DNA of 64,000 bases from positions 20,148 through 84,147 of the forward strand of contig JAAVDX010000021.1 in assembly GCA_014801585.1 (NCBI GenBank). The letters are read 5' to 3'. The stretch is from Bacteroides sp. Lineage in GTDB: Bacteria > Bacteroidota > Bacteroidia > Bacteroidales > Muribaculaceae. The translations under genes were made by a program, and so were the position numbers. This document shows positions 28,937 through 32,475 of the stretch, piece after piece. The notes under the pieces were generated by a model, which made no database searches, was not told where the DNA came from, and saw nothing but the letters and a program-made list of their open reading frames with translations. How positions within the stretch are numbered: position 1 is the stretch's first letter; the number at the start of each line of letters is the position of its first letter.

Positions 28937-29530
28937 TTATACGTTGTCTTCTGCAGGCATGAAGTGCTGATAGGGATGGTAACATGCCGGGCATTTCTCA
29001 GGAGGCGTGGTGCCTTCGTAAATGTAGCCGCATACGAGACACTGCCACTTGATGGGCTGGTCACGCTTCCAGACTGTCCCTGTCGCGATACGCTCCGACA
29101 TCTTATTGAAGCGGGCTTCGTGATGAGCCTCGATCGATGCGATAGCGAGGAAACGCGCTGCGATTTCATCAAAACCTTCGCTCTTTGCCACTTCGGCCGC
29201 CTTCTTATAAAGGTCAACACCTTCGCTCTGCTCCTCAGCCGCTGCGATCTTAAGATTCTCTACAGTGCTGCTGAGATTGCCGCTGTCTACGCCTACAGAT
29301 GCTTCACATACTCCGCCGTCGACGAGATATTTCAGGAAAATCTTGGCGTGATGGAGCTCATTGGCTGCAGTCTCATTGAAGATATTCGCATACTGGAAGT
29401 ACGATTCTTTCTGACACTGCTGTGCATAGTATGTATAGCGGGTTACTGCGGTAGATTCTACTACGTATGCCTGTGCGAGATAGCCTGCTGTCTTTGTGCC
29501 TTTAAGACTCTTTTGCTGTGTGTCTGCCAT
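28937..29530 (-). CDS. rbr: Rubrerythrin
   Basis: A 197-residue non-haem iron peroxidase that reduces hydrogen peroxide in anaerobes. The N-terminal ferritin-like domain has TAANELHHAKIF and IASIEAHHEARF, the ExxH iron ligand pairs of the diiron site. The C-terminal rubredoxin domain has WQCLVCGYIYEGTTPP followed by CPACYHPYQHF, the two CxxC iron knuckles. Cytoplasmic, a usual part of the anaerobe oxidative-stress defence. It converges on murF-alr across a shared terminator; no clear TAnnTTTG box was found on its upstream side. Confidence 0.95.
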   Translation of the reverse strand: MADTQQKSLKGTKTAGYLAQAYVVESTAVTRYTYYAQQCQKESYFQYANIFNETAANELHHAKIFLKYLVDGGVCEASVGVDSGNLSSTVENLKIAAAEEQSEGVDLYKKAAEVAKSEGFDEIAARFLAIASIEAHHEARFNKMSERIATGTVWKRDQPIKWQCLVCGYIYEGTTPPEKCPACYHPYQHFMPAEDNV

Positions 29531-29580
29531 AATATAAAAAGTTTTTATAAGGTTATATTTATTTTTTTCTTTTTTTGTTG

Positions 29581-29589
29581 TAATTTCGC
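29581..29589 (+). promoter_or_regulatory. Promoter of recO
   Basis: TAATTTCGC after a long T-rich stretch; leader of about 120 nt. Confidence 0.55.
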
Positions 29590-29710
29590 ATCTGTAATGG
29601 GCCGCTGTTCTTTCAGCGACCGCAGACCGCCTTCCTGCGAACGGTCAGCCCCCGGAGCTCGCCCGGATTACATTTTATTAACACCCTTAGCGAAATAATT
29701 GTTTTAGGGA

Positions 29711-30436
29711 ATGATAACAAAAATTCACGGAATTGTACTTTCCGTCGTTAAGCATAACGACCGCAACAACATAGTGACTCTATATACTGCCGAGCGCGGA
29801 CGTGTGGCGTTTCTTTCCCCGACCTCTTCGGGTAAGAGCGGACGCATGCGCAATGCCCGTCTCTCCCCTCTGGCTCTGGTAGAATCGGAGGTAAATTTCC
29901 GCGAAAACCGCGACCTGCAGTATCTCGGCGCTATCTCTACCCCGCGTCCCTGGAAGAATCTCTATTTTGATCCTGCCAAAGCGCCGATCGTGATCTTTCT
30001 GTCGGAATTTCTCAGCAAACTCCTGCGCACTTCGGAAGCCGACTCTTCTACATGGAATTATCTGCTGTATGCCCTTACGGCACTTGACTCCAACTCGCAT
30101 ACTTGTGCCAATTTCCATCTCGCATTTCTACTGCGGATGTTGCCTATCGCCGGTATATCTCCCGATGATGCCGACTGGCAACCCGGTGATCTCTTCGACA
30201 TGCGTTCCGCTGAGTTCACTCCCGTCCATTCCGGCCACAGCGATATTCTGTCGCCTGACGAAACCCGTCTCATTCCCCTGCTGATGCGTATGAACTTCCG
30301 CAATATGCACCTCTACAGATTCAACATAGGTCAGCGCAGGCGTCTGCTCCGGCTCCTTATACATTACTATTCGCTCCATCTCCCCATTCCGACAGATCTG
30401 AAATCCCTCGACATCCTCGCCGAACTCTACGACTGA
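29711..30436 (+). CDS. recO: DNA repair protein RecO
   Basis: A 241-residue protein. The N-terminal OB-fold begins MITKIHGIVLSVVKHNDRNNIVTLYTAERGRVAFL, the usual RecO opening, followed by the helical domain with LSEFLSKLLRTSEAD and a C-terminal LRLLIHYYSLHLP segment. RecO works with RecR to load RecA on SSB-coated single-stranded DNA in gap repair. The zinc-finger cysteines of some RecO proteins are absent, as in other Bacteroidetes forms. The 671-bp gap downstream holds the paired small RNAs. Confidence 0.9.
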   Translation: MITKIHGIVLSVVKHNDRNNIVTLYTAERGRVAFLSPTSSGKSGRMRNARLSPLALVESEVNFRENRDLQYLGAISTPRPWKNLYFDPAKAPIVIFLSEFLSKLLRTSEADSSTWNYLLYALTALDSNSHTCANFHLAFLLRMLPIAGISPDDADWQPGDLFDMRSAEFTPVHSGHSDILSPDETRLIPLLMRMNFRNMHLYRFNIGQRRRLLRLLIHYYSLHLPIPTDLKSLDILAELYD

Positions 30437-30546
30437 GCCGAAAAATCCCCCCGGGCAACAAGTAATCGGAAAACTTAAAAGTATAACGTGGCAAAAGGAC
30501 ACGGACAAGCACAGCAAATCAACACATAATATCTTATAAATCAGCT

Positions 30547-30617
30547 ATAAAAAGAAAAAGATTAATTGTCATCACGACAACTAATCCTCTAACCTTAAAT
30601 CTAATACCATGAAAAAC
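30547..30617 (-). ncRNA. Candidate small RNA 1 of a paralogous pair
   Basis: About 70 nt on the minus strand. The promoter is at 30622-30654. The predicted 5' part is TGTGTTTTTCATGGTATTAG, then TTTAAGGTTAG, then a hairpin (30560-30586, GATTAGTTGTC / GACAATTAATC with one G-U) and CTTTTTCTTTTT. All parts of a short intrinsically terminated transcript are present. The 5' part is nearly identical to unit 2, whereas the hairpin differs in sequence but not in form. The 5' end is complementary to AUGAAAAACACA-type start regions, which suggests, without proof, base pairing with mRNAs near start codons. Confidence 0.68.
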
Positions 30618-30621
30618 ACAT

Positions 30622-30654
30622 GCAAAATTAATACTTTTCCCAATAATCACCAAA
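30622..30654 (-). promoter_or_regulatory. Promoter of small RNA 1
   Basis: Minus strand TTTG (30651-30654), exact 20-nt spacer, TAATTTTGC (30622-30630); full match to the Bacteroidetes consensus. Confidence 0.75.
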
Positions 30655-30861
30655 TTTTTCAGCGATAAAATTATCTATCACTTAGCACTTTAACCATTTT
30701 TTAGACTTCCATTTTGAAAGCCTCCGACCCTATTTTCCTACATTATTCCTACCTATACTTTTCACTTGGCAACTTTCATCCCGTATCAACTTGACAAACA
30801 CCCCCTTTTCTCTTACTTTTTGCTAAATTAAAAAAATTTTTATCTTTTTTGAATCCGCTGC

Positions 30862-30938
30862 CCAAAAGAAAAATGGCCGGTCTCTTTTCACAAAGAGGCC
30901 GGCCTAACCTTAATCTTAATTTAATACTATGAAAAACA
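30862..30938 (-). ncRNA. Candidate small RNA 2 of a paralogous pair
   Basis: About 76 nt on the minus strand. The 5' part is TGTGTTTTTCATAGTATTA, then AGATTAAGGTTAG, almost the same as unit 1. It ends in a strong hairpin (30875-30904, GGCCGGCCTCTTT / AAAGAGACCGGCC with one wobble) and ATTTTTCTTTT. The promoter is at 30943-30975. The terminator stem shares no sequence with unit 1 yet occupies the same place, as expected for an RNA gene whose conserved part is the 5' region. Confidence 0.68.
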
Positions 30939-30942
30939 CATT

Positions 30943-30975
30943 GCTAAATTACTGCTATTTTTTCTAATACGCAAA
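30943..30975 (-). promoter_or_regulatory. Promoter of small RNA 2
   Basis: Minus strand TTTG (30972-30975), 20-nt spacer, TAATTTAGC (30943-30951), one base off consensus; same geometry as unit 1. Confidence 0.68.
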
Positions 30976-31107
30976 CTTTCTCCATTTTTTTTACATTTTT
31001 TAGCAGTAGAATCTATTTTTTATTCGGGATTTTTTCCGTCGCTTCATGAATATTCCAATCATTTTCATTAACTTTGGCTCCGGAAATTCTCCTAACCGAA
31101 TTTACTT

Positions 31108-32475
31108 ATGGAACTCCTTTATCATTATCTTTGGCATCATCGTATGCTCGGCCGCTCTTTTTCCGACCTCCGGGGCCACCGGATTGAGGTAATCTATCCC
31201 GGACGGCACAACGAGGATGCCGGTCCGGACTTTGCCAATGCCCGTCTGAGAATCGACGGGCGGGAATGGATCGGCAATGTTGAGATACATGTGAGGGCTT
31301 CCGATTGGTTCCGCCACGGCCATGACTCCGATCCGGCCTATGATAACGTTATCCTACATGTCGTGGCAATCGACGACACTCGCATCCTCCGCAAGAATAA
31401 TGAGGAAATTCCACAAATCACTGCCGCTCTCCCTCCAAACTTTCTTCTGACCTATGCCGCTCTGGCGCCTGATAATGCTAATTCCTCTCTTACCTCTGTC
31501 GACTCCCCCGACCGCAAAGCTATCGCCCGCAATCTGAATTCTGCCCGTTGCGCCTCCCGATTCGCCGACATCCCCCAACTCACCCGGAAGGACTGGCTCG
31601 AAACTCTGTCGGTAGAAAGGATCCACTTTAAGGCTCAGCGGCTTCTTGATTATAGCCGGAAGCTCGGCGGCGATTGGGAACAGGCCGTCTTCGTAATGCT
31701 GGCCCGCGGATTGGGGTTCGGCCTTAACGGCATCCCTTTCGAGATGCTTGCAATGAATCTCCCCCTGCGAATTGTCTATCATCATGCCGATAATCTCTTG
31801 CAGACCGAGGCCCTCATCTTCGGTCAGGCCGGAATGCTCGACGGCTCCAACCATATCTTTGACGAATATTACCGGCGCCTATGCATCGAATATGGGTTTC
31901 TCGCACGCAAATACGGATTGCACCCGATGAACGTTTCGCTATGGAAATATGCCCGTACGCGCCCGCAGAATTTCCCTCACCGACGGCTTGCAATCCTCGC
32001 CCGTGCCCTTTACGAAGGGATTCGCTTCTCTTCCTCTCTGGAGGAAGCGGCCGGAGATTATGAGGCCTTATTGCGACTTTTCTCCTGGAAAGCCGAGGGA
32101 TATTGGAGCAATCATTTTGATTTCGGCAGAGATCCCTCCGGGTCCGACCTTCCGCTCTCCCTCTCGCGTGGTAGCCGGAATCTTCTGATGATCAACGTGG
32201 CCGCACCTTTTTATATGGCCCACGCCCAACTCACGGGCGACCTCGAACGCGGTGAACGGGCTCTGGATCTTCTGCGTTCAATCCCGTCCGAAAAGAATTC
32301 AATAATTAAGTCGTGGGAACAGCTCGGCCTGACGTCTCCCGACGCCTTGCGCTCTCAGGCTCTCATCCATCTCCATGATGAATATTGCGTGAAAGGGCAA
32401 TGTCTGCAATGCCGATTCGGCCATTTTCTACTACGCAAAGAAGCTGCGACTCTCAGTTGTGCCACAGGAATCTGA
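31108..32475 (+). CDS. DUF2851 family protein
   Basis: A 455-residue protein of the Bacteroidetes family DUF2851. Characteristic segments: ELLYHYLWHHRMLGRSFSDL at the start, GRHNEDAGPDFANARLRIDG, and WIGNVEIHVRASDWFRHGHD. The GPDF-x-NA and EIHVRASDW stretches resemble PD-(D/E)xK nuclease cores, but I only infer this. The C-terminus carries three cysteines in EYCVKGQCLQCRFGHFLL, a possible metal knuckle. Function unknown. It lies beside recO without an evident shared promoter; the upstream gap holds the small RNAs. Confidence 0.85.
   Translation: MELLYHYLWHHRMLGRSFSDLRGHRIEVIYPGRHNEDAGPDFANARLRIDGREWIGNVEIHVRASDWFRHGHDSDPAYDNVILHVVAIDDTRILRKNNEEIPQITAALPPNFLLTYAALAPDNANSSLTSVDSPDRKAIARNLNSARCASRFADIPQLTRKDWLETLSVERIHFKAQRLLDYSRKLGGDWEQAVFVMLARGLGFGLNGIPFEMLAMNLPLRIVYHHADNLLQTEALIFGQAGMLDGSNHIFDEYYRRLCIEYGFLARKYGLHPMNVSLWKYARTRPQNFPHRRLAILARALYEGIRFSSSLEEAAGDYEALLRLFSWKAEGYWSNHFDFGRDPSGSDLPLSLSRGSRNLLMINVAAPFYMAHAQLTGDLERGERALDLLRSIPSEKNSIIKSWEQLGLTSPDALRSQALIHLHDEYCVKGQCLQCRFGHFLLRKEAATLSCATGI

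Follow-up and report, generated by a model that had tools for sequence, protein, structure and literature searches.

Two FopS/GibS-type small RNA genes between recO and a DUF2851 gene in Muribaculaceae, with predicted pairing to start regions of outer-membrane protein mRNAs

The window analyzed here is a 64,000-nucleotide stretch of a Muribaculaceae genome (GCA_014801585.1). Between recO (29711–30436, plus strand; domains RecO_N and RecO_C) and a gene for a DUF2851 protein (31108–32475, plus strand; identified by domain match), it carries two units on the minus strand, designated A and B. In unit A, a −33 type box TTTG (30651–30654) and a −7 type box TAATTTTG (30623–30630), both read from the sequence, precede a predicted RNA start at about 30619 with the 5′ letters GTGTTTTTCATGGTATTAGATTTAAGGTTAGAGG. 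The small RNA gene occupies 30552–30619, with a 5′ seed at approximately nt 1–30, and its terminator hairpin (30560–30586), located by folding, alignment and a terminator scan, runs into a T-rich tail. Unit B is built alike, with boxes TTTG (30972–30975) and TAATTTAG (30944–30951), again read from the sequence, a predicted start at about 30939 with the 5′ letters GTGTTTTTCATAGTATTAAATTAAGATTAAGGTTAG, a small RNA gene at 30864–30939, and a hairpin at 30875–30904, paired and covarying in the alignment of homologues, that also runs into T-rich DNA. The spacer between TTTG and the −7 box is 20 nt in both units. The original prediction, which described two minus-strand units with this promoter form, a near-identical 5′ end and a hairpin that ends in T-rich DNA, holds in its description and coordinates, except that the shared AAGGTTAG lies at different offsets in A and B. 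Folding leaves nt 1–19 unpaired in both units, and fold stability relative to shuffled sequences gives z-scores of −3.3 for A and −2.2 for B. A scan for sigma-70 style promoters did no better than on shuffled sequence, which is the usual outcome in this phylum.

A cmscan search of the whole 64-kb window matched unit A to RF04319 (BTncRNA_FopS) with 67.5 bits (cut-off 56, E 1e-7), so that the covariance search proposed with the original prediction places it in a described family (PMC11697453). In a 701-base search, unit B scored 44.5 bits against the same model (E 3e-5), under the gathering score of 56, and GibS (RF04182, cut-off 115) gave 43.8 bits for unit B and 32.2 bits for unit A. Counterparts of unit B at L012–L014, three relatives chosen via their DUF2851 protein, score 42–49 bits against RF04319. 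Judged by these matches, unit A belongs to the FopS small RNAs and unit B to a divergent class, named FopS/GibS-like and not filed as FopS because its score falls short of 56 bits. Membership of either unit in GibS or BTnc231 was rejected, the scores being far under the cut-offs. A third clear FopS copy, at 79.1 bits, is found on contig C14 of the same genome, an assembly of 2.23 Mb in 39 contigs that is 79.75% complete; its three paralogous copies thus comprise two over the RF04319 cut-off plus unit B. An unpaired 5′ stretch with a conserved seed followed by a terminator hairpin, several paralogous copies per genome (three in this one) and, by consensus, a promoter of the canonical sigma-ABfr type are all traits of FopS membership found here. 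The proposal that the units are sibling small RNAs of a trans-acting type is supported, and the Rfam match of A and the sub-threshold match of B go beyond chance.

Copies from the genus sort into three classes, represented by unit A (class A), unit B (class B) and the C14 copy, which starts with GAGTTTTTCATGG (class C). A FopS match at E ≤ 0.01 was obtained in 47 of 61 genomes searched and, within the genus itself, in 36 of 37, the present genome included. In related genomes, units A and B are again found adjacent to these genes or not far from them, and L012–L014 all carry both close by. Loci L124, L126 and L132, which lie on the same contigs as L014, L012 and L013, were removed before counting; the alignment of class B (A1) leaves out the L137 copy, which sits at the end of a contig, that of class A (A2) leaves out the L144 unit, a class C copy, and counts of upstream identity, antisense frames and promoter boxes exclude units with short upstream sequence. 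Within these limits, nt 1–30 of class A are identical in 26/26 aligned homologues, and the class B 5′ end is constant in 24 aligned homologues except for one inserted T in three, its nt 1–20 being invariant. Pairwise identity is 0.3–0.6 upstream and rises abruptly to 1.0 where the RNA begins (nt 1–30 in A, nt 1–20 in B). In class A, TAnnTT[TC]G falls within the last 16 nt upstream in 26/26 homologues and a TTG or TTTG box lies 17–23 from the −7 box in 18/26; in class B, the strict TAnnTT[TC]G is found in 16/22 (mean 5.7 of 6 matches, versus 3.6 in shuffled sequence), with a TTTG −33 box at suitable spacing in 15/22. The two hairpins were predicted to have changed together while keeping their form. 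This holds for class B, in which 98.7% of cells are paired across 24 homologues, 8 of 13 pairs show two-sided change, and the covariation score is 0.468 versus 0.227 ± 0.021 in shuffles (0/500 as high), dropping to 0.100 or less when the hairpin is slid. It does not hold for class A, whose hairpin (98.9% of cells paired, 26 sequences) is nearly invariant and shows no covariation. A and B persist as distinct classes within one Muribaculaceae genus.

Around these genes, recO, rubrerythrin, DUF2851, queA and rluD are arranged and oriented differently from one species of the genus to another (window 28937–32475; L012–L014, L123–L162), units A and B are often located at the junctions, and the class A and B genes may occupy a rearrangement-prone spot near recO. 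Most class C promoters have directly upstream a dyad like TATGTTNTANAACATA (L001, at C14:64403–64418 of the present genome; L018–L042), which is also seen at FopS loci of other families (L015–L017, L031) and is absent at units A and B. It is enriched genus-wide, and the present genome has 8 sites versus 1 for the reversed pattern. The B. theta study mentions a regulator of FopS (PMC11697453), and the dyad could be its operator. The same dyad, with a half-like second copy, lies at L189:1963 (contig C18 of the present genome), upstream of a gene for a Crp/Fnr-type regulator (2128–2829; PF00027, PF13545), which by autoregulation is a candidate for the dyad-binding protein. In other families of the order, FopS copies form regularly spaced tandem arrays, one of four copies about 289 bases apart (G279:C21:15920–16857) and one of three copies about 250 bases apart (G193:C1:3141137–3141708). 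The 30-nt FopS seed region is also present, at 96.7% identity, in Bacteroides phage BX-TP2 (PQ571285.1:44822–44851), and two unannotated phage records also match.

We examined possible targets at the level of exact and of imperfect pairing. The original prediction had the 5′ end pair exactly with mRNAs that begin with AUGAAAAACAC, as a common class of gene starts. This string (ATGAAAAACAC) occurs at four sites in the genome, two of which are the sRNA genes themselves; the simple target model is therefore wrong. The other two sites open frames of 39 and 20 codons only and were rejected as targets, with no convincing gene at either. Complements of the seed 16-mer with up to 2 mismatches are found at 6 sites in this genome, 3 of them sRNA genes; the remaining 3, versus 2 for the control, are no clear excess. 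One close porin orthologue (L215) does start with the exact ATGAAAAACAC, a single case.

The broader part of the prediction, in which the 5′ end is the pairing region and start codons are the likely target site, is supported by the predicted pairing register. Weak, sub-threshold RF04319 matches in the genome place, by inspection, the CAU of the model across from an ATG that may begin a gene in 4 of 8 cases. The best of them, selected for that reason, is a Porin_O_P gene (PF07396), with predicted duplexes of −27.9 kcal/mol for A and −28.1 kcal/mol for C. Across 30 porin loci, those analyzed among the matches listed, class A gave a z-score of −2.9 relative to shuffled sRNAs (2/200 as good) and class C one of −4.7 (0/200). 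When porins were split into close and distant groups, a division chosen after the energies had been seen, the 13 close orthologues, own gene excluded, gave class A z-scores of −4.0 relative to shuffled sRNAs (1/500 as good) and −3.9 relative to shuffled leaders (0/200); the 40-nt leaders of the close porins, own included, are just 31% identical. No class A signal was obtained with the 16 distant porins (z 0.3; CAU in register in 8/16). Class B also has a porin signal (z −3.8, 0/500 shuffles as good). On 36 SusC starts (7 from the present genome plus 29 best-match loci from a 41-genome sample), class A gave a z-score of −2.7 (1/200) and class C one of −5.9 (0/200), and class B gave no signal, with 103/200 shuffles as good.

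Among close porins, 12 of 14 have the start codon opposite the class A CAU, as do 25 of 36 SusC genes, versus 19/44 window starts, 11/28 other starts and 28/120 internal ATGs. Class C shows some pairing with 116 other gene starts too (z −4.2), and part of the signal is therefore generic start-codon context. Gene starts were assigned by taking the longest ORF, a simple rule that has probably misplaced some of them. Taken as sequence predictions, these comparisons support imperfect start-codon pairing for the Porin_O_P gene, with weaker support for SusC genes. The start region of a small membrane protein (L008, C32:5305–5353 of the present genome) has its best predicted pairing with class B, at −26.5 kcal/mol. 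This protein presumably resembles the CrcB fluoride channel.

In B. theta, the RRM protein RbpB is reported to counteract FopS repression (PMC11697453). This partner trait, a reported B. theta property outside the Rfam definition, was not found here. Our search for RNA chaperones covered the RRM_1 family (PF00076), which had no match in the present genome or in any of a sample of 61 genomes from the genus, of which 22 are 90% complete or more; control Bacteroides matched. With no RRM match in this genus sample, the RNAs would either do without a helper or rely on a different protein. In an order-level sample of 247 genomes, FopS was found at E ≤ 1e-4 in 50 and RRM_1 in 167. By comparison of the two listings, RRM_1 is present in 29 of the 50 FopS genomes and absent from 21, one of which (G299) is just 65% complete; the 21 include all 4 of the present family. 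Since RRM_1 is present in 29/50 genomes with FopS versus 138/197 without, there is no positive link between the two. Among the papers searched, none joined Muribaculaceae, small RNAs, the RNA recognition motif and Bacteroidetes.

Two readings would deprive the units of a role as RNAs. The reverse complement resembles a Bacteroidota gene start, and the conserved element might on that account be on the plus strand, as a short leader peptide or a gene start ATGAAAAACAC.. retained as a short ORF that is translated. Its coding part would then fall in the diverged promoter region, and the antisense ATG frames are not conserved and usually short: 7 codons in 16/26 class A homologues (range 7–70) and, for class B frames ending inside the locus, 5–12 codons in 19/22 and 26–28 in 3. 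Homologues keep the promoter boxes and hairpins instead, as the original prediction required of RNA genes, and we rejected the plus-strand reading as having next to no chance of being right. Scrambled gene order around the units, similar sequences in phage records and tandem copies in other genomes would suit a mobile or recombining repeat whose remnants look conserved through recent copying and not through function. Against this, A and B stay distinct in species whose neighboring RecO and DUF2851 proteins often share no more than ~40–60% identity with their window counterparts, the promoters diverge but the RNA stays constant, and the B hairpin has changed in a compensatory manner; we regard a repeat origin as very improbable. 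Function at the RNA level, which was the original claim, agrees with the two-sided changes in class B and with the poor conservation of the antisense frames.

A different kind of alternative accepts that the units are transcribed and related to the family and holds that, in this genus, they act chiefly by binding protein, as a sponge or decoy, and not by pairing with mRNAs. The seed, and the class A hairpin too, are nearly invariant, beyond the apparent need of loose pairing with diverse leaders, and B. theta FopS is reported to bind RbpB (PMC11697453). The partner family known from that system is nevertheless absent from the genus genomes, and the start-codon register, together with pairing maintained although the porin leaders have diverged, is consistent with mRNAs as partners. 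Protein binding as the chief mode of action is thus unlikely, though we give it more weight than a plus-strand ORF or a repeat.

We consider it likely that units A and B are FopS/GibS-type sRNAs that act by start-region pairing on outer-membrane mRNAs, without an RRM protein. They would be two members of a FopS/GibS superfamily, each with a Bacteroidota promoter of its own to drive transcription and a hairpin of its own to end it. Imperfect pairing is predicted between the 5′ end, which is unpaired, and the translation start region of mRNAs for outer-membrane proteins, UUUUUCAU with AUGAAAAA and the next UAAGGUUA-like stretch with an A/C-rich leader, and such pairing would block translation initiation. 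Class A, together with class C from elsewhere in the genome, probably targets some SusC genes as well as the Porin_O_P gene; class B has the porin signal in common without the SusC signal, parallel to the reported split between GibS and FopS. From sequence, we infer that both units are transcribed and that they probably turn off outer-membrane transporter genes by covering the start codon, and in this genus FopS-type RNAs would do so without an RRM protein.

The kind of RNA is already known, FopS having been published in 2025 from Bacteroides thetaiotaomicron. There it is an RNA of ~65–70 nt, induced by bile salts and encoded by 14 paralogues, whose extended seed R1′ is reported to cover the susC mRNA start codon and block translation, a mechanism backed by in-line probing, EMSA and in-vitro translation (PMC11697453). 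The genes described here share with RF04319 the 5′ seed GUGUUUUUCAU.GUAUUAGAU, a 5′ end left unpaired ahead of a terminator hairpin, the canonical promoter, several copies per genome and, as predicted here, start-codon pairing with mRNAs of outer-membrane transporters. They differ from B. theta FopS in their Muribaculaceae host, in the genus-wide lack of RRM/RbpB matches, in having Porin_O_P as the best predicted target and in copy number, with 3 clear copies in a genome 79.75% complete versus 12–15 reported in Bacteroides; unit B, in addition, is under the family cut-off. Like GibS of Bacteroides, unit B has the consensus pieces CAUAGUAUUA and AAGAUUAA and gives no SusC pairing signal, but it is shorter and, at 43.8 bits, far from the cut-off of 115. 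GibS is reported to have a non-canonical promoter motif (PMC7366714), whereas unit B has ordinary −7 and −33 boxes. OmrA/B, Qrr and LhrC are likewise reported as paralogous sRNAs acting jointly in one cell (PMC11697453); no sequence relation is claimed.

What is new is the persistence and specialization of FopS-type RNAs in a group without the protein partner. The chances seem to us about even that FopS is older and wider than the RbpB circuit, so that in families without RRM (Muribaculaceae and several others) classes A, B and C divide control of porins and SusC, with RbpB antagonism in only part of the group. The findings would extend a newly described control of nutrient uptake from Bacteroides to Muribaculaceae, another gut family, and suggest that, over evolution, this control can do without the protein partner that has been studied most. 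The Porin_O_P gene, with its predicted pairing site at the start codon, offers a testable target, and classes A, B and C may serve as a natural experiment in seed specialization.
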